64,000 nucleotides of DNA, taken from NCBI RefSeq assembly GCF_000092425.1, contig NC_014221.1, positions 2,423,001-2,487,000 on the forward strand. Direction: 5' to 3'. The notes beneath the pieces were generated by a model. That model was not told where the DNA came from. It made no database searches and saw only the letters and a list, made by a program, of their open reading frames with translations. This DNA comes from Truepera radiovictrix DSM 17093. GTDB taxonomy: Bacteria; Deinococcota; Deinococci; Deinococcales; Trueperaceae. Below, piece by piece: positions 5,641 through 20,901 of this stretch; positions within the stretch are counted from its first letter, which is position 1; the number at the start of each line of letters is the position of its first letter. The translations under genes were made by a program, and so were the position numbers.

Positions 5641-7077
5641 TTAGCGGCGCACGCGACCCGCCAAGACGAGCGCCGCCGCGTGGCGCCCCGACAGGAGCGC
5701 CAGCGGGATCCCGCCCCCCGGGTGCACGGTGCCGTTCGCCAGCACGAGGTTGCGCACGCCCCGCAGGGTCTGCTTGGGCCGCAGGGTGGCCGCGAGCGAG
5801 TGCGGCGCGGCGCCGTAGATGGCGCCGCGGTGCGCGAAGCGCGCGAGGTAGGCGGGCGGCAAGACCCGGCGCACGCGGACGCGCTCCCGCACGTCCAGGC
5901 CGCGCCGCGCCAAGACGCCCAAGAGGTGCTCGGCGTAGCCCTCCCCCCCGTGCGCCCCAGCGGGCGCGGCCTCGGGGAGGGCGGGGGCGTTGACCAGCAC
6001 GAACCAGTTCTCGCAGCCCGGGGGGGCGTCGCCGACCTCCGACTTCGAGCTGATCGAGACGTAGAGCGTCGGGTCCGCGGGGAGCGCGCCGCGCGCGATC
6101 GCCCGGAATTCGGCGCGGTAGTCGTGCGGGAAGAGGATGTTGTGGTGCGCCAGCCCCGGCGTCTTTCCCTCGAGCCCCAAGAGCAGCACGAAACCCGACA
6201 GCGAAGGCTCTCGCCGCTCGGCCCGCGAGCGCCTCCCCAAAAGCCGGTGCGTGCGGATGAGGTCGAGCCCGGAGACCACCACGTCCGCCGCGAAGACCCC
6301 CGCGCTCGTGTGCGCCGCCGCGACGCGCCCGCTTTGCACCTCGAGGCGCTCGACGTGCACCCCCGTGTGCAGCGCCACCCCCAGCTTCTCGGCGAGCGCC
6401 GCGAGGCGCCGCACCACCCCCTTGATGCCGCCGACCGGGTAGAACACCCCTAAGCCCAGCTCCACCCAGGCGATGTTGTGCAGCACCGCCGGGGCGCGCG
6501 TGGGGTCGGCGCCGAAGTAGGTCGCAAAGCGCAAAAAGAAGGGCTCGAGGTCGCCCGTGGCGCCGAACTGCCGCAAAAGGGCGGGCAGGCGCTTTCCCGG
6601 GTGCGCTCTTAGCCCCCCGCCAAGGGCGTAGCGCAAGAGCTCGCGCGGCCCCGGCGCGTGCCCGAAGAGGAAGGTGGGGGCCGCCGCCTCGTAGAGCGCG
6701 CGCGCCTCGCGCACGAGCCGCCGGTACGCCCGCGCCTCGTGGGGCGTCAGCTGCGCGGTCGTCGCCTCGGCGTCTTTGAAAACGTCCCACACCCGCCCCG
6801 ACGGGTAGAGGTAGCGGCAGAGGGGGGAGAGCGGCCAAAAGACGGGGGGCGTCTCCCCCGCGCGCGCGAAGAGCTCCGTAACGATCTCGGGGAGCGTCCA
6901 GACGCTCGGGCCGAGGTCGAAGCGAAACCCGCCCGCCGCAAACTCCCCCGCCTTGCCGCCGACCTCGGGCTCCCGCTCCACGAGCGTCACCTCTAGCCCC
7001 GCGAGCGCTAGGTGCAGCGCCGCTGAGAGCCCCGCGAAACCGCCCCCCAAGACGAGCGCCGTTTTAGGGGCGCTCAC
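5641..7077 (-). CDS. Carotenoid desaturase of the CrtI/CrtD/CrtN family, probably CrtD-like
   Basis: A 478-residue FAD-dependent carotenoid desaturase. The N-terminus holds the dinucleotide-binding fold (ALVLGGGFAGLSAALHLALA, then VTLVEREPEVGGKAG). The C-terminus has the family signature LANGTVHPGGGIPLALLSGR, which also contacts FAD. GTG at 7077 overlaps the glycosyltransferase stop (GTGA) and was chosen over the longer ORF. Being last in an operon with a glycosyltransferase and a lycopene cyclase/CruF hydratase fusion, it most likely acts as a 3',4'-desaturase on a 1'-hydroxy carotenoid (CrtD role in deinoxanthin or myxol synthesis). A phytoene-desaturase role cannot be excluded, because no other CrtI candidate lies in the window. 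Confidence 0.82.
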   Translation of the reverse strand: MSAPKTALVLGGGFAGLSAALHLALAGLEVTLVEREPEVGGKAGEFAAGGFRFDLGPSVWTLPEIVTELFARAGETPPVFWPLSPLCRYLYPSGRVWDVFKDAEATTAQLTPHEARAYRRLVREARALYEAAAPTFLFGHAPGPRELLRYALGGGLRAHPGKRLPALLRQFGATGDLEPFFLRFATYFGADPTRAPAVLHNIAWVELGLGVFYPVGGIKGVVRRLAALAEKLGVALHTGVHVERLEVQSGRVAAAHTSAGVFAADVVVSGLDLIRTHRLLGRRSRAERREPSLSGFVLLLGLEGKTPGLAHHNILFPHDYRAEFRAIARGALPADPTLYVSISSKSEVGDAPPGCENWFVLVNAPALPEAAPAGAHGGEGYAEHLLGVLARRGLDVRERVRVRRVLPPAYLARFAHRGAIYGAAPHSLAATLRPKQTLRGVRNLVLANGTVHPGGGIPLALLSGRHAAALVLAGRVRR

Positions 7078-8168
7078 GACGCCCCCCCGTAGGTGCGGCC
7101 CTTCCAGGTGTAGGTGCGCGACAGCAGCGCGCGCCACCCCACCCGCCAGAGGGGAAAGGCCATCAGGGGCTGCAAAAACGCCTCCAGGGGGCTCCGGCGC
7201 GTTTTAAAGCAGGTGAGCGCGCGCTGAAAGGCGCCCATCGCCGCCGGCACCAACCAGAGCGGGTGCCAGAGCGACAGGGGCCACGCGAGCGTGTAGGCGA
7301 GGGTGTTGAGCAAAAGTGACGCCACGAGCTGCGGGCGCCCACCATGGGCCGCCACGATGTTTTTGGAGAAGCCCGCGACGGTCTCCTCGGCGCTCCGGTA
7401 CATGCGGGTGCTGAGGAGCTCGCCGCCGAGCGCTAGGGCTACCTTGAGCCCCTTGCCCTTGGCGCGCTGGCCCATACGCACGTCCTCCAAAACTTCGTCC
7501 CGAAAGGCGCGGTGACCGCCGACTTGCAGATACGCCGAACGCGTCCAGAGCATGCACTGGCCGTTCCCCGCCGAAAAGGCCGCGTCGCGGGTGCGCCGCA
7601 CGGCGGGGTACGGCAGATACCCCAGGAGGATAAGGTCGATTAAGGGCACCGTGAGGCGCTCGAAGAGGGTGTGCGTGCGCTGCCGCGGCCAGACGCTCGC
7701 GTACACCGCGTCGTGGCGTTCGGCAAAGGCGAGGAGCGCGCCCAAAGCCCCCCGCTCCCAGAAGACGTCGGCGTCGGTAAACACCACCAGCTCGCCCGAG
7801 GCCGCCCCCGCGAGCTGGTAGCAGGCCCAGTTCTTCCCCCCCCACCCCGCCGGTAGGGGCTCGCCCCGCAAGACCCTGAGCTGCGGGTGCTCGGCGGCGA
7901 AGCCCTGCAACACCCGCAGCGTGTCGTCCGTGGAGTTGTCGTCCAGGACGATCACCTCCGCCGCGCCCTGGGCCAGGAGGCCGGGGAGCGTCTCCGGCAG
8001 GGTCGCCGCTTCGTTGCGCGCGGGGACGAGGAGCGACACGCGGCGCCGGCGCACCGGCTCGGCGGGCGCGAGGACGGGAAACGTCGCGGCGTTGATGAGC
8101 AGCACGGCGAGCTGCACGCCCAAAAAGAGCGTCACGAGCCACCACAGCGCCGTCGCAGGCGGGCTCAC
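7074..8168 (-). CDS. Family 2 glycosyltransferase, probable carotenoid glycosyltransferase (CruC-like)
   Basis: A 364-residue membrane glycosyltransferase of the GT-A fold. An N-terminal helix (residues 5-30) is followed by VSLLVPARNEAATL, VIVLDDNSTDDTL and the metal-binding VVFTDADVFW (DAD in place of DXD). EDVRMGQRAKGKG resembles the ED motif that precedes the acceptor site. Two or three C-terminal helices (LAWPLSLWHPLWLVPAAM) anchor it. GTG at 8168 overlaps the upstream stop (GTGA). In green sulfur bacteria the pair CruC (glycosyltransferase) and CruD (acyltransferase) decorates hydroxy-carotenoids; here an acyltransferase domain is fused to the upstream protein, so glycosylation of a carotenoid 1'- or 2'-hydroxyl is the likely job. 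The substrate is inferred from context. Confidence 0.82.
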   Translation of the reverse strand: MSPPATALWWLVTLFLGVQLAVLLINAATFPVLAPAEPVRRRRVSLLVPARNEAATLPETLPGLLAQGAAEVIVLDDNSTDDTLRVLQGFAAEHPQLRVLRGEPLPAGWGGKNWACYQLAGAASGELVVFTDADVFWERGALGALLAFAERHDAVYASVWPRQRTHTLFERLTVPLIDLILLGYLPYPAVRRTRDAAFSAGNGQCMLWTRSAYLQVGGHRAFRDEVLEDVRMGQRAKGKGLKVALALGGELLSTRMYRSAEETVAGFSKNIVAAHGGRPQLVASLLLNTLAYTLAWPLSLWHPLWLVPAAMGAFQRALTCFKTRRSPLEAFLQPLMAFPLWRVGWRALLSRTYTWKGRTYGGAS

Positions 8169-10306
8169 GAGCGAAACACCCGCCCCACCCACGCCGCGCG
8201 CTCGTGCGTGCTTTTCGCGCCGCCTAGCCACGCCGTAAAGCCCGGCGGTGGCTGCTCCGCTTCGGCGCGGCGCAGCAGGTCGTCGAGGTCGCCTAAAAGC
8301 GCGTTGAGGGCCCCCTCGAGCGCCGCGGCGTCGGTCGCTTCAAGGGGCGCGCCTACGCTGAGGAGCGCCTCGGGGTGCTGCGCCCCGCGCACCGTGACGC
8401 GTATCGCGAGCGGCACCACCGGCACCCCCGCGCGCCGCGCGAGGTAGAGGACGCCGGGGCGCGTCCGTGACACCTGCCCGGGGGGGCGCAGCACCCCCTC
8501 GGGGAAGAGGATAAGGACCTCGCCGCGCGCGAGGCGCCGCAGCGCTTCGCGCACCTCGGTGGTCTTTAAAGCGCCGTGAGCGCGGAAAAAGGGGAAGCGC
8601 TCGACGGTCGCGTCCAACATCAGCCCGCTCAGGGGCCGGCCGAGGCGGCGGCCGATGAACCACGCCAAGTAGGGGTCCCACCACGCGTGATGGTTCGCCG
8701 CCAGGATAAAGCCCCCCTTGGGGAGCGCCCCCCACGGCCCGCGCGCGTAGACCCCGTGCAACCCCCGCCGCAGCGAACGCCGGATGATCCAGGGGAGGCA
8801 GCGAGCGATGAGCGCGACCAGGGCCCCTTGCGCGGCGCGCTTGAGGCGCGCCGCGCCCCCCACGGCCCAAGCGGTGGTCTGCTGCGGGAACGCCGCCCAG
8901 ATGCCGACCGCGCCCATCGCCACGAGCACCGCCAGCGCCGCCCACGGCAGGCCGAAAAAGAGCAGGCCGAAGGTCATGAGAAAGAGCTGCACCCAGAAGA
9001 CCGCGTGCAGGTCGCGCGGACGCTCCGTCTCCAAGCGGGGCTCGAGCCGCAGCAGCAGCGCCACCAAGACCCACCCCGCGGCGTACCACCCCACGAAGTT
9101 GCTCAGGGGCACCCCGTAGTACGCCCCCGACGCGAACGCCCAGAAGCCCTGCGACACCATGAGCGGGTCGAGCCCCACGTCCCACGCGACCAGCACCAGG
9201 GGCGCGAACCAGCGCGCGCTGCCCCGCGGGGCGAGCGCGAGGGCGATCATGGTGAACGCGAACCAGCCTAGAGGCACCAGCAGCGGCACCCCCAAGAGCG
9301 CCGGCCCCGGCGCGGTGTAGCGGTACGCCCCGAAGGGCACACCCGTGCGGTAGCCGAGCCACTCGACCACCACCCCGAAAAGAAAGGCGAGCGCAAAGAG
9401 CGACCACGCCCGCCGCCCGTAGCGCTCCAGGGCGCAGCCCAGCACCCCGAGGGTCAGCAGGAGCGTGCTGAGGTAGGCGAGCGGGACGAACGCCCCCGGC
9501 AGGAGCGGCGTCGGCACCATCGTCAGCACCCACAAGACGAACGCCACGCGCCACCAGCGGAGCTTGGCGAGCGCGCGCAACCGCCCTAACGACTCGGGCG
9601 CGAGGGCGAGCGTCATCCCGAAGACGATGAGCAGGTTTGTGAGCAGAAAAAAGAGCGCCTCCTCGACGGGCAGCCCTAGGGGCCGCCACCCCGTCGAGAG
9701 CGCCGGTGAGATCCACCAGATGCCCGCGCCGAGGGCGACGCGGTCGGCCAACCAGAGGTAGAGCGTCGGCAGCGCGGCGCTCGGCAGCACCCAGCGCCAG
9801 CGCCTGACGAGCAGGTCGCCGCCAAACCCCCACTGCAGCGCCAACACGGGCGCCGCCCACGCCGCGATGAGGCCGAAGTAGGTGCCGCGTTCGGTCGAGA
9901 GCGCGAGCACCCCGGCCGCCGCCAAGAGAAGCCACGCGAGCGCCCCGCCGCCCTGCACGAGGCGCGCGGTGTGGGCTCCTAGGGGCGGCCCCAAGCGCAC
10001 CGAACGCCCCAAGAGCAGCGTCAGCGTCCCCGTCAGCAGCGTCTGGAGGATGAAAAACAGGTACTCCTCGAAGGGCACCCACCCGACGGTGAAGAGCACC
10101 CGCCCCGCCCCGTACCCCCACACGCCGCGCGCCACCAGGTAGTTGTCCCACGGGGTGGTGTAGAGAAACGCCACGAGCGCGTGCAGGGCGAGGGCGGCGA
10201 GGCCGAAGCGGGGGAGCTCGCCGCGCCGCGCCGCGCGGCGCGTCAGCGCGCCGAGCAGCAGCAAAGGCGGCAGGAGGAAGACGAGGTGAAACTGCAAGTA
10301 GGTCAT
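8165..10306 (-). CDS. Three-part fusion: lycopene cyclase (CrtYcd type) - CruF-like hydratase - PlsC-type acyltransferase
   Basis: A 713-residue protein carrying three enzymes. Residues 1-240 are two lycopene beta-cyclase units of the CrtYc/CrtYd type, with PWDNYLVARGVWGYG (52-66), VPFEEYLFF (77-85) and LPVEEALFF (212-220). Residues about 265-470 match the membrane carotenoid 1,2-hydratase CruF (DUF422), including GVPFGAYRYT and VAWDVGLDPLM (373-383). Residues about 490-713 are a PlsC-like acyltransferase with NHHAWWD (538-544, the HX4D catalytic motif) and FPEG (601-604). The ATG at 10306 fits the usual start of the cyclase domain; an in-frame ATG 17 codons earlier is possible. It is first in an operon, followed by overlapping glycosyltransferase and CrtD-like genes. 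The predicted roles are cyclising one lycopene end, hydrating the other, then acylating the attached sugar (CruD-like). Confidence 0.88.
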   Translation of the reverse strand: MTYLQFHLVFLLPPLLLLGALTRRAARRGELPRFGLAALALHALVAFLYTTPWDNYLVARGVWGYGAGRVLFTVGWVPFEEYLFFILQTLLTGTLTLLLGRSVRLGPPLGAHTARLVQGGGALAWLLLAAAGVLALSTERGTYFGLIAAWAAPVLALQWGFGGDLLVRRWRWVLPSAALPTLYLWLADRVALGAGIWWISPALSTGWRPLGLPVEEALFFLLTNLLIVFGMTLALAPESLGRLRALAKLRWWRVAFVLWVLTMVPTPLLPGAFVPLAYLSTLLLTLGVLGCALERYGRRAWSLFALAFLFGVVVEWLGYRTGVPFGAYRYTAPGPALLGVPLLVPLGWFAFTMIALALAPRGSARWFAPLVLVAWDVGLDPLMVSQGFWAFASGAYYGVPLSNFVGWYAAGWVLVALLLRLEPRLETERPRDLHAVFWVQLFLMTFGLLFFGLPWAALAVLVAMGAVGIWAAFPQQTTAWAVGGAARLKRAAQGALVALIARCLPWIIRRSLRRGLHGVYARGPWGALPKGGFILAANHHAWWDPYLAWFIGRRLGRPLSGLMLDATVERFPFFRAHGALKTTEVREALRRLARGEVLILFPEGVLRPPGQVSRTRPGVLYLARRAGVPVVPLAIRVTVRGAQHPEALLSVGAPLEATDAAALEGALNALLGDLDDLLRRAEAEQPPPGFTAWLGGAKSTHERAAWVGRVFRS

Positions 10307-10482: not shown

Positions 10483-12021
10483 TCATACCCGCTTGCGCTC
10501 CAGATCCTTGAGCACCACCCGCGCCGCGTTCCGGCCCGAGGCCCCCATGATGCCACCGCCCGGGTGCGTGCTCGCCCCCGTCAGGTAGAGCCCCCGCAGG
10601 TGCGTCCGGTACTCCGCCATCCCCAAAAAGGGCCGCAGGGCGAACATCTGGTCCAAGCTCATCTCGAGGTGCATGACGTTGCCCCGGTAGAGCCCCAAGT
10701 GGCGCTCGAGCCACGCCGGGTGCTGAAACAGCCGCCCGACGACCTTCGCCTTGGTGCCGGGGGCGTGGACCTCGAAAGCGTCCAGGATGGTCTCGGCGAC
10801 CTCGTCCTCGATGTCGTCCCAGCGCCGAGCGCCGGCGAGCTCATAGGGGAAGTACTGCGCCCAGAGCCACAGCACCTCCCCCCCGGGTGGCGCCAAGGTG
10901 TCGTCCACGGCGCTAAAACTCATGGCCACTAGGGGCGGGTCGGAGGCGGGGTGGCCCGCCAGGTACTCGCCGTACGCGGCATTTAGCTGCGCCCGGTCGC
11001 GGCAGATGAGCCCTAGCGCGCGCCGCGCCTCGTCACCGGGGTGGGCGCGGTAGCGGACCCGCTCGCGTAGCGCGAGCCGCAAAATCGCTCCGAAACCGTT
11101 GCCCACGCGCATGCTGCGGCTCCCCTCGGGGCGGTGCGCCTCGGGCAGAAGTTTACCGAAGGTCTCTAGTGCGTGCGCCCCGGCGACCACCGTGCGCGCG
11201 GTGTAGACCTCCCCCCCGACCTGCACCCCCGTCGCGCGACCCCCCTCGACGAGGATGCGCTCGGCGGGCGCGTTGACGAACACTTGGCCGCCGTGCGCCG
11301 CGATGTGCCGCGCCAGCGCCTGCGTGAGCATCCCCGAACCGCCCTTCGGCCGCGCCATCCCGCCCTCGTGGTAAAGGGGCTGCCAGAGGACGAAGGGCGA
11401 CGAGAAGGGCTCGCTGGGCGGCGGCCCCGACTGCGCCGCCATCCACACCAAGGGCGCTTTGACCCGCTCCTCTTGAAAGTAGCTGTCGACGACCTCGCCG
11501 TAGGGTTTGAGGATCATGGACAGGGCCCGCTTCCAGTCGCCGCGCACCGCCTTACCGAAGACCATCTTGCGGCCCAGGTTTAACGGGCTCGGCGTGCTCA
11601 AAAAGAGCTCTTTGACGACCCTGCCGAAAGGGCGCCAGTCGTCCAGAAAGCGCCGGTACGCCTCCCCCTCGCCCGGGTAGGCGCGCTCGAGCCCCTCGAT
11701 GGTCCGCTCCTCGCTGCGCCACACGAAGACGCTCTCCCCGTCCTCGTAGGGGGCGAAAAAGAGCGGGTCGATGTCGAGGTACTCGAGCCCGAAGCGCTCG
11801 AGCCCCAGCTCCTCGACGATGGGGGTGAGGCGAATGAGGATGTGGGCGCTCCCGCCCAGGTCGAAGCGGTAACCCGGAATGATCTCCTGCGTGGCGACCG
11901 CCCCCCCCACGATCTCGCGGCGCTCGAAGACGCCGACTCGGTAGCCCGCCTGGGCGAGGTAAGCGCTGGTGATCAGCGCGTTGTGGCCCGCGCCCACGGT
12001 GATGACGTCGAAGTCTGGCAC
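10483..12021 (-). CDS. crtO: Carotene ketolase CrtO
   Basis: A 512-residue FAD enzyme of the CrtI superfamily that adds a 4-keto group to beta rings of carotenoids. It resembles the D. radiodurans CrtO as I remember it, through stretches such as [18 protein letters not shown] (FAD-binding), [49 protein letters not shown] and the C-terminal [20 protein letters not shown]. Length is normal. The GTG start is 5 nt after TAGAGT on the minus strand with no Shine-Dalgarno, so it is probably leaderless and transcribed apart from the cyclase operon. With a lycopene cyclase nearby, the likely substrate is a mono- or bicyclic carotene, as in deinoxanthin synthesis. Confidence 0.93.
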
Positions 12022-15674: not shown

Positions 15675-16574
15675 TTACGGGGCGCTGCAGATGCCGTAGA
15701 CGGCTTTGGGAATCAGCGCGAGCCGTTCGACGGGGCGCAAGTAGGCGCGCTTGGTCAGGTTGTCGTAGCCGTTTTGCCGAAGCTTGTTGAGGATCCCCTC
15801 GTAGTTGAGCGCAGCTACCCCGACCGCCGCCGCCGCTACGCCGTTGAGTTTGGGGATCCCCTGCCACCCCTCGCGGTAGAGCGCGCAGGTGCGCTCGGCG
15901 AGCTCCTCCAAAAGGGCGATGTAGCGGTCGCTGACGACGCCCGCCTCGAGCGAAGCGCGGGTCACGCCGTGCTTGTCCATCAGCTCGAGGGGCAGGTAAA
16001 GGCGCCCCATGGCGAGGTCTTCGCCGACGTCGCGCAAGATGTTGGTGAGCTGCATCGCCTGGCCGAGCGCTAGGGCGCACTGCAGCGTCGCCTCGCCACC
16101 GCGGTAGCCCGCGATCGGGGCGATGAGCAGCCCGACGACCCCGGCGACGCGGCGGCAGTAGAGCATCAGCTCGTCCATGGTGTGAAAAGGACGGTTGTCG
16201 AGGTCGGACTCGAGCCCCAAGTAGAGTTCGTCGAAGGCGCTCCGGGGGACCTCGTAGTGCTGCAGCACCCAGTGCAGACCGACCTCTAGAAACGCTCCGG
16301 GTTGCGGCTCGCCGGCGTAGGCGCGCTCGATCCCCTCTTGCCAAACGAGCAGGCGCCTGCGCCCCACCTCCGGCGAGGGCGCCTCGTCGACGGCGTCGTC
16401 GCCGCTGCGACAGACGGCGTAGATCACCGACACGGCGCTCCTTTCACGGGCCGGAAAGAAGCGCGAACCCAAGTAGAAGGTGCTCGAGTGCGCGCGGGTG
16501 AGCTGCGCACAGGCGGCGACGGCCTCTTTGGGTTCGAACACGTGGGTCAGCCCGGACGCTCGCGCACCGATCAC
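15675..16574 (-). CDS. crtB: Phytoene synthase
   Basis: A 299-residue squalene/phytoene synthase that condenses two geranylgeranyl diphosphates to phytoene, the first committed step of carotenoid synthesis. Both Asp-rich Mg-diphosphate motifs are visible: CRSGDDAVDE near residue 57 and NILRDVGEDLAMGRLYLP near residue 180. ALNYEGILNKLRQNGYDN near the C-terminus is typical of the CrtB subfamily. I prefer the GTG at 16574, preceded at 6 nt by GGAGGCG, to the GTG nine codons earlier. It is monocistronic, downstream of ispG in the same orientation with a 200-bp gap, and supplies the cluster at 5.6-12 kb. Confidence 0.95.
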   Translation of the reverse strand: MIGARASGLTHVFEPKEAVAACAQLTRAHSSTFYLGSRFFPARERSAVSVIYAVCRSGDDAVDEAPSPEVGRRRLLVWQEGIERAYAGEPQPGAFLEVGLHWVLQHYEVPRSAFDELYLGLESDLDNRPFHTMDELMLYCRRVAGVVGLLIAPIAGYRGGEATLQCALALGQAMQLTNILRDVGEDLAMGRLYLPLELMDKHGVTRASLEAGVVSDRYIALLEELAERTCALYREGWQGIPKLNGVAAAAVGVAALNYEGILNKLRQNGYDNLTKRAYLRPVERLALIPKAVYGICSAP

Positions 16575-16774
16575 AGTCGCCTCCGATAGGCTCTCCCCCA
16601 CCCCATGTGGCCCCGACGCATTGGGTCAGTTCCGCCGGCGATCGTCATGTGGCCCAATCATGACACGCGCCAAAAAAGCCCAAGTACGACCCACCCCACG
16701 TTCTCGCCGCGCTAGGTGTGCTCTTGCCGCCGCCCTCGCCGCCGACTTGGGACTTGGCCGCAGCTGGCGACGCG

Positions 16775-18004
16775 CTACGCGCTCACTTCCCGCTGGCCGT
16801 AACGCGCCTTGACGTACTCGTCGAGCATGCGGTTAAAGTCTTCGACGATGGTTTTGCCCTGCAACACGCCGACGAACTGGCCGTCGCGGTAGACGGGGGC
16901 TCTCGGGTCCTCACCGGTGCCGGGGAGCGAGATACCGATGTCCGCGTGCTTCGACTCGCCGGGGCCGTTGACCACGCAACCCATGACGGCTACTTTGAGC
17001 CCTTCGACCCCCGGGTACTGCTCGCGCCAGACGGGCATCTGCGCCTTGAGGTAGGCCTGGATGTCGCGCGCCATCTCCTGGAAAAGCGTGCTGGTGGTGC
17101 GGCCGCAACCGGGGCAGGCGGTCACCGTCGGGGCGAAGCGCCGCAGGTCGAGCGCCGAGAGGATCTCCTGGGCGACCTCGACCTCTTTGGTGCGCGGCGC
17201 CCCCGGCTCCGGCGTGAGGGAGACGCGCACCGTGTCGCCGATCCCCTCGGCGAGGAGCACGCTAAGCCCGACCGCGCTCGCCGCGATGCCCTTGACGCCC
17301 ATTCCCGCTTCGGTGAGCCCTAGGTGGAGCGGGTAGTCGCAGCGCGCCGCTAGGCGCCTGTAGACCTCCCAGAGGTCACGCGGGGCGGAGACCTTGGCCG
17401 AGAGGATGATCTTGTCGTGCCCCAAGCCGTGCGCCTCGGCGAGCTCGGCCGAGAGCAGAGCCGACTGGAGCATCGCCTCGATCATCACCTCGCGCGCCTC
17501 TTTGGGCTCGGGCGAAGCGGCGTTTTCATCCATCAGCTTGGTCAAAAGCTGCTGGTCGAGCGACCCCCAGTTCACCCCGATGCGCACCGGTTTGTCGAAA
17601 GTTTTGGCGACCTCGATGATGGTCAAGAAGTTCTGGTCGTGGTACCGCCCCGCCCCGACGTTGCCGGGGTTGATGCGGTACTTCGCGAGCACTTCGGCGG
17701 TCTTGGGAAACTCGCGCAGCAAGAGGTGCCCGTTAAAGTGAAAGTCGCCGACGAGCGGCACCTCTAGACCCTCGTCGAGGAGCCGCGCCTGGATCTCGGG
17801 AACGGCTCTAGCGGCGTCTTTGGTGTTGACCGTGATGCGGACGACTTCGCTACCGGCGCGGTAGAGCTCGGCGACCTGCTGCGCGGTCGCTTGCGCGTCG
17901 GCGGTGTCGGTGTTGGTCATCGACTGCACCACGATGGGGTGCTCCGAACCGATGGGGACGCCCCCCACATAGGTCGTGACGGTTTTGCGGCGAGGGTAGG
18001 CCAT
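16775..18004 (-). CDS. ispG: 4-hydroxy-3-methylbut-2-enyl diphosphate synthase (IspG/GcpE)
   Basis: A 409-residue iron-sulfur enzyme converting methylerythritol cyclodiphosphate to HMBPP in the MEP isoprenoid pathway. The N-terminal TIM barrel begins [12 protein letters not shown]. The 4Fe-4S ligands are visible at C297 and C300 (ACPGCGRT) and C343 ([10 protein letters not shown]). Length fits the bacterial form without the plant/chlamydial insert. ATG 18004 is 6 nt from TAGACT on the minus strand with no Shine-Dalgarno, so it is probably leaderless. Its closeness to crtB fits supply of prenyl precursors for carotenoids and retinal. Confidence 0.97.
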
Positions 18005-20016: not shown

Positions 20017-20901
20017 ATGCTCACCATGGAAAACCTGCTCACCTACTCGCCCGTGTCCTACAGCATCGTCTCCAACACGCTCACGCTCGGGTACGCGGCG
20101 ATGGCCGCGGGGCTCGTCTACTTCGTGACCACCAGCAAACGCGCCGCCCCACCCTACCGCCTCTCCTCGACGCTCTCGGCGGTGGTGATGGTGAGCGCCT
20201 TTTTGGCGCTCTATCAGCTCCACCAGACCTGGCTGAGCGCCTTTACGTTTAACGGCGAGGTGTGGGAAGGCGGCGCGACCGCCTTTAACAACGGCTACCG
20301 CTACATCAACTGGTCGATCGACGTCCCCATCCTGCTCACGCAGCTCCTCATCGTCATGGGGTTTACCGGCGCGCGCTTTCGCCGCCTCTGGTTGCAGTTC
20401 GTCGTCGCCGGCCTGGCGATGATCTACACGGGGTACGCGGGGCAGTTCTATGAGGCTACCGACAGCGCCCGGCTCTACCTCTGGGGGGCTATCAGCACGG
20501 CGTTTTTCCTCTGGATTCTGGTGCTCGTGCGGCGGACCATCTTCGACCCGCCGGACGCGCTGCCGGAGCGCGCCGCGGGGCTCATGCGGGGGGTGTGGTG
20601 GGTGCTCCTCGGGTCGTGGCTGCTCTATCCGGGCGCCTACTTAATGCCCGTCTTCGCCCTCTCCGAAGGGGGCGTGGTAGCACGGCAGATCTCGTTTACG
20701 GTCGCCGACGTCGTCTCGAAGGTGATCTACGGGGTGATGCTGAGCCGCGTCGCCGAGCTGCGCAGCCAGGCCGACGGCTACGCGCACGCGCTCGAGTCCG
20801 AAACGCAGCCCAACCCCGACCGGCGCGGGGGTGCGGGGGTCGCGGCGGTGCAGCCCCAGGGGGGGCGCGCCCCGCGCAAGGGGCGGGTCCACCGCTCCTA
20901 G
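20017..20901 (+). CDS. Microbial rhodopsin with the NDQ motif, predicted light-driven Na+ pump
   Basis: A 294-residue seven-helix retinal protein. Helix C reads RYINWSIDVPILLTQLL, giving Asn98, Asp102 and Gln109 at the three functional positions; this NDQ combination defines sodium-pumping rhodopsins such as KR2. Helix G has DVVSK, with the Schiff-base Lys235 and counter-ion Asp231; Arg95 is also kept. Gly157 in helix E (LWGAIST) sits where bacteriorhodopsin has Trp138 and xanthorhodopsin has the Gly that admits an antenna carotenoid. The C-terminal 45 residues are polar and disordered. ATG 20017 gives the longest form; ATG 20026 is equally likely, since the only TANNNT box (TATGCT, 20016-20021) overlaps the first. 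A terminator upstream shows it has its own promoter. No retinal-forming dioxygenase gene is in the window. Confidence 0.95.
   Translation: MLTMENLLTYSPVSYSIVSNTLTLGYAAMAAGLVYFVTTSKRAAPPYRLSSTLSAVVMVSAFLALYQLHQTWLSAFTFNGEVWEGGATAFNNGYRYINWSIDVPILLTQLLIVMGFTGARFRRLWLQFVVAGLAMIYTGYAGQFYEATDSARLYLWGAISTAFFLWILVLVRRTIFDPPDALPERAAGLMRGVWWVLLGSWLLYPGAYLMPVFALSEGGVVARQISFTVADVVSKVIYGVMLSRVAELRSQADGYAHALESETQPNPDRRGGAGVAAVQPQGGRAPRKGRVHRS

Follow-up and report, generated by a model that had tools for sequence, protein, structure and literature searches.

Several fusions among carotenoid enzymes have been described that resemble parts of the protein reported here. One of them is trd_1162 of Thermomicrobium roseum, described in 2009, a single protein with CruF ahead of an acyltransferase, whose gene neighbours those for a GT2 glycosyltransferase and CrtI; it carries no lycopene cyclase domain, and T. 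roseum was reported to lack any known lycopene cyclase and to produce linear carotenoids (PMC2615216). Fusion-type CrtYcd lycopene cyclases, which hold CrtYc and CrtYd in one chain without a hydratase or an acyltransferase, are known from Sulfolobus and Algoriphagus (cited in PMC2889829). CruF of Deinococcus (dr0091 type) goes back to Sun et al. 2009, as cited in PMC11306087 and PMC11855829. The CrtIBY protein of thraustochytrids likewise joins three carotenoid enzymes in one polypeptide, a CrtYcd-type cyclase included (PMC10016063), but its other parts are a desaturase and a synthase rather than a hydratase and an acyltransferase, and it is eukaryotic and of independent origin. The CruF-acyltransferase fusion, the fusion-type CrtYcd and trifunctional carotenoid proteins of other kinds are therefore already known.

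We analysed a stretch of 64,000 nucleotides (the window), which covers positions 2,423,001-2,487,000 of the Truepera radiovictrix genome (single contig, 3,260,398 bases). On its reverse strand lies a gene (8165..10306) that starts with ATG at 10306, ends with TGA at 8165-8167 and encodes 713 amino acids without any internal stop; its initial MTY is nearly invariant in an alignment of relatives. The lycopene-cyclase model TIGR03462 matches two stretches within aa 1-235 (127.4 bits against a cut-off of 39.4), the CruF family PF04240 matches aa 281-461 (117.8 bits, gathering score 25) and the acyltransferase family PF01553 matches aa 529-635 (43.4 bits, cut-off 23); PF18916 on the cyclase part reaches 24.4 bits, just under its cut-off of 27. 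The first-pass annotation had proposed that these three domains share one uninterrupted frame, and all three are indeed found there above cut-off. As in T. roseum, CruF and an acyltransferase occupy one chain, and the cyclase domain is an addition. In relatives the three domains are colinear at roughly 40-70% identity, which argues against a chance fusion. An AlphaFold model of the protein has a mean pLDDT of 92.5 and a pTM of 0.69; confidence drops only over the initial half of a long helix (474-515) that links two domains and over the 12 C-terminal residues.

The cyclase domain (9602..10306, reverse strand; aa 1-235) is of the CrtYc+CrtYd heterodimer type. It is built of two repeats whose homology is supported by hhalign (95.5%, E = 1.5e-8), both matched by TIGR03462, in agreement with the earlier description of two CrtYc/d units. 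CrtYc carries a PWDN motif (10142..10153, reverse strand; aa 52-55), of which P52, W53 and D54 are invariant in 22 relatives, and a PFEE motif (10064..10075, reverse strand; aa 78-81), while CrtYd carries a PVEE motif (9659..9670, reverse strand; aa 213-216); P78, E80, E81, P213, E215 and E216 are likewise invariant in relatives. The predicted folds of CrtYcd and CruF resemble each other as helix-helix-strand-helix units, but profile comparison did not support homology between their sequences (E = 0.07, probability 0.8%). A Foldseek search of the membrane part against the PDB returned no significant match.

The CruF carotenoid 1,2-hydratase domain (8891..9520, reverse strand; aa 263-472) retains the residues that are invariant among relatives (E315, PFG 324-326, D376 and N403). 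It scores below all three NCBIfam equivalog cut-offs for CruF (82.4 against 154.7, 57.8 against 300 and 36.2 against 400 bits) and so is a member of the same family that falls outside the three curated subgroups. Its family and its operon point to hydration of a psi-end as its putative reaction.

The PlsC-type acyltransferase domain (8168..8821, reverse strand; aa 496-713) contains the HX4D motif (8675..8692, reverse strand; aa 539-544), whose H and D are invariant in 26 relatives, and the FPEG motif (8495..8506, reverse strand; aa 601-604), as aligned with relatives. Both had been called intact at first pass, and in the alignments no conserved motif is lost from any of the three domains. Structure searches with Foldseek match PlsC (5kym) and PatA (5f2z), of which PatA acylates a lipid-linked sugar. 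On the lysophosphatidic acid (LPA) acyltransferase model TIGR00530 the domain reaches 24.9 bits, far under the cut-off of 102.95, and it is therefore predicted not to be a standard LPA acyltransferase. As it matches the PlsC/PatA fold, scores far below the LPA-acyltransferase model and always adjoins a GT2 gene, it likely acylates the sugar of the carotenoid. The resemblance to 5kym, and the annotation of family members merely as acyltransferases, would also suit an enzyme acting on ordinary membrane lipid, but we regard this as quite improbable: besides its low score, the domain keeps its place across the phylum between CruF (CrtYcd in Thermus) and GT2, another acyltransferase gene is present elsewhere in the T. 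radiovictrix genome, and in T. roseum acylated carotenoid glycosides accompany the same CruF-acyltransferase pair (PMC2615216).

The CruF-PlsC junction (8807..8890, reverse strand; aa 473-500) begins the long predicted helix and has the lowest pLDDT inside the chain (61-75). In a sister Truepera MAG (L004), an ATGA gene overlap stands at the corresponding position. PlsC might be made in the cell as a separate polypeptide by internal initiation, or the fusion might be a sequence error. In-frame GTG and ATG codons occur at aa 460-482, the sister species starts PlsC at an ATG of its own in another frame, and the other triple fusion found in our survey (see below) has an internal ATG with GGGAGG upstream; however, no Shine-Dalgarno-like sequence was seen before the codons at aa 460-482 in the window gene. 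As for an error, GC3 stays at 0.92-0.97 across the junction, frame +1 is stop-free over aa 444-559 and frame +2 until aa 655, so that a single base wrongly dropped or inserted would not be enough to mask the usual end of CruF; a single-indel sequencing error is thereby ruled out as the cause of the fusion. The genome is also finished, with a stated error below 1e-5 (PMC3072082). Taken as a pair, internal initiation and sequence error are very improbable, and we treat the gene product as one polypeptide.

The surrounding genes are those of a carotenoid operon. The next gene on the same strand, kept in that place phylum-wide, encodes a CruC/CruG-like GT2 glycosyltransferase (7074..8168, reverse strand), whose GTG start overlaps the stop of the fusion (GTGA). 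A CrtD-like desaturase of the CrtI family follows (5641..7098, reverse strand; TIGR02734, 300.9 bits; start codon provisional), assigned also by synteny. A candidate CrtO-like carotene ketolase (10483..12021, reverse strand) lies on the other side of the fusion; synteny and its best match, NF045689, suggest this assignment, at 335 bits against an equivalog cut-off of 1000. A member of the phytoene/squalene synthase family, the CrtB candidate, is at 15675..16601 (reverse strand; PF00494, 250.8 bits), directly downstream of a gene that we assigned by eye as IspG-like (16775-18004, reverse strand). The order CrtO-[CrtYcd-CruF]-PlsC-GT2-CrtD is that of the Deinococcota operon in the Trueperaceae and Deinococcales examined. 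In most Trueperaceae the phytoene synthase gene precedes and adjoins CrtO, and in T. radiovictrix it stands elsewhere within the window; CrtI lies elsewhere in the genome (588.7 bits). Since most of the enzymes around the fusion, like CruF itself, score under their NCBIfam equivalog cut-offs, the exact pathway steps proposed for them are family-level guesses.

To place the fusion among its relatives, we surveyed 111 Deinococcota genomes and scanned contigs (best 80 of 391 matches), together with a sample of 400 Chloroflexota genomes. In nearly all CruF-bearing Trueperaceae among the 111 genomes and the contig scan, CrtYcd is fused to CruF and directly followed by the gene for PlsC, which mostly lies in a different frame; the same double fusion occurs in three other Deinococcales genomes (L120, L121 and L125). 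These proteins (e.g. L004, L009 and L120) share with the window protein the first two domains, their order and the operon, but their PlsC is a separate and usually overlapping gene. Among the 111 genomes of Deinococcota and the 80 best contig matches out of 391, the triple fusion was found only here and in a single unrelated Trueperaceae MAG (G099, loci L006 and L086), and others may exist beyond this set. The first-pass annotation knew of the three enzymes only as separate proteins. That view fails on two counts, the CruF-acyltransferase fusion published in 2009 (PMC2615216) and the CrtYcd-CruF fusion that is the normal state in Trueperaceae; what proved rare on searching the Deinococcota is the triple, and only the joining of PlsC is special to this gene.

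In a maximum-likelihood tree the window protein groups with the unfused L004 (97/92), apart from L006, whose branch is long. Two independent triple-fusion events are thus needed, and a single origin for both was rejected because the tree forces two changes. At locus L003, CruF and PlsC share one frame and are separated by a single TAA, which shows that the join can form easily. We propose that the fusion of CrtYcd with CruF arose early in the history of Deinococcota and that PlsC was added later, independently in T. radiovictrix and in the one MAG. In Thermus, CrtYcd and PlsC are neighbours and CruF is absent; four loci (L055, L078, L123 and L124) have the order CrtYcd-PlsC-GT2. Thermus makes acylated zeaxanthin glucosides (thermozeaxanthins), which this order without CruF fits. 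CrtYcd and CruF are unfused neighbours in Chloroflexota, where open frames of 550-573 aa that resembled a fusion were discarded, as a genuine stop codon in the DNA separates the cyclase from CruF. One member of the Trueperaceae (G096, locus L127) has CruF and PlsC, has lost the CrtYcd domain and has CrtL instead.

We also compared the distribution of FAD-type lycopene cyclases with the state of CrtYcd. Of the CruF-bearing Deinococcota genomes, 19 have lost CrtYcd or hold it in degenerate form, and 18 of these have a FAD-type cyclase; of the 28 in which CrtYcd is intact, 8 have one (P = 5e-6 by Fisher's exact test, a value that overstates the contrast, as the genomes are related). The distance from the FAD cyclase gene to a downstream CruF with a cyclase remnant is 47-327 nt in 16 genomes; in family f2, no FAD cyclase accompanies the intact CrtYcd of three genomes, and the only genome with a remnant has one adjacent to it. 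No FAD cyclase was found in G099, which holds the other triple fusion. The distribution looks like what replacement of a working CrtYcd cyclase would leave.

The orthologous CruF of Deinococcus, found in this operon alongside PlsC, GT2 and CrtD, has about 150 residues ahead of the hydratase. This N-terminal part aligns over 68 columns to the middle of CrtYcd (hhalign probability 97.1, E = 6e-11, score 74; the best of 40 local shuffles scored 24 and reversed sequences 13-14). In the Deinococcus genomes examined (dr0091 not among them), the cyclase part is thus a short, degenerate remnant from which, unlike in the window protein, PWDN and the two PxEE motifs are missing, and immediately upstream of it lies a gene for a FAD-type cyclase (L103-L116 and L122, the set comprising Deinococcus and one f2 genome). 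The remnant has a dN/dS of 0.26-0.49, where the CruF part has 0.05-0.30; this indicates mild purifying selection, so that constraint at the protein level persists. The remnant implies that the cyclase-hydratase fusion predates Deinococcus CruF, in which the cyclase half would have died, displaced. In the literature within our scope, which leaves out most subscription journals, we found no description of the join between cyclase and hydratase, the triple fusion, its double origin or the Deinococcus remnant.

T. radiovictrix belongs to the eight genomes that combine an intact CrtYcd with a FAD-type cyclase. Its CrtL-type lycopene beta-cyclase (genome C1:2654546-2655853, L147:6547-7854; 531 bits, above the equivalog cut-off) belongs to a type found in the Deinococcota sample only in Truepera (T. 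radiovictrix and its sister species) and G096, and the fused cyclase is therefore not the sole ring-closing candidate. It is conceivable that CrtL makes the ring and that the fused CrtYcd has become a scaffold, decaying towards what is seen in Deinococcus, as the presence of CrtL in both Truepera species and the remnant on Deinococcus CruF would allow. We consider this unlikely, however, since the window protein, unlike the remnant, retains every PWDN and PxEE motif, and a FAD cyclase occurs beside an intact CrtYcd in six further Trueperaceae. The genome moreover encodes microbial rhodopsins and has a blh match, so CrtL may serve beta-carotene for retinal, although its feeding of retinal synthesis is a guess. 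A rhodopsin gene with the sodium-pump NDQ pattern (NWSIDVPILLTQ) lies at 20017-20901 on the forward strand, some 10 kb away from the carotenoid genes, and a second NDQ-type rhodopsin at genome positions 3205288-3206040. A remnant of a proton-pump-type rhodopsin with both ends missing (genome C1:195283-196926, L149) lies downstream of a TnpB-like zinc-ribbon end; after it comes a blh gene whose sequence is divided between two frames, the two genes being either a decaying pair or the result of a frameshift; no further blh match was found in the T. radiovictrix genome.

From the domains, single frame, conserved motifs, synteny and phylogeny observed, we infer the activities, substrates, product and any coupling benefit. 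The gene probably encodes a trifunctional membrane-bound enzyme, evolved stepwise from an operon, of a pathway to acylated, glycosylated monocyclic carotenoids, for which the best reading is a 4-keto-gamma-carotene/torulene type resembling salinixanthin. The CrtYcd part would close one beta-ring on lycopene to give gamma-carotene, and the CruF part would then hydrate C1',2' of the remaining psi-end. Separate operon enzymes would carry out 3',4'-desaturation (CrtD-like), 4-keto formation (CrtO-like) and glycosylation of the 1'-OH (GT2), before the PlsC part finally esterified a fatty acid to the sugar. The suggestion made at first pass, that the domains act at opposite ends of the molecule and on the sugar, agrees with this predicted pathway and with synteny.

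Both cyclase and hydratase begin by protonating the psi-end. As the two compete for the same end group, their 1:1 tie would favour a product with a single ring and a single hydrated end rather than beta-carotene or dihydroxylycopene. With Nonlabens genes expressed in E. coli, crtY yields beta-carotene, cruF yields dihydroxylycopene and both together yield 1'-hydroxy-gamma-carotene (PMC11855829). Most relatives keep PlsC as a separate gene, so the triple join is not required for the pathway; it could conceivably bring a channelling benefit. A bolder reading, which we put forward tentatively, is that the fused cyclase and hydratase act as an end-counting enzyme whose covalent 1:1 pairing sets the asymmetry of the product, and that Deinococcus CruF is its fossil, with the dead cyclase half still attached and replaced by the upstream FAD-type cyclase.

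These results portray a carotenoid operon condensing stepwise into one protein, with the stages (separate, double, triple and decayed) alive in relatives. The competition between cyclase and hydratase becomes directly testable, and the gene would be a natural single-gene tool for asymmetric, acylated carotenoids. The N-terminal part of Deinococcus CruF may be reread as a lost cyclase. For the radiation-resistant T. radiovictrix, whose genome paper gives no pigment data (PMC3072082), the proposed pathway would predict the nature of the red pigment.
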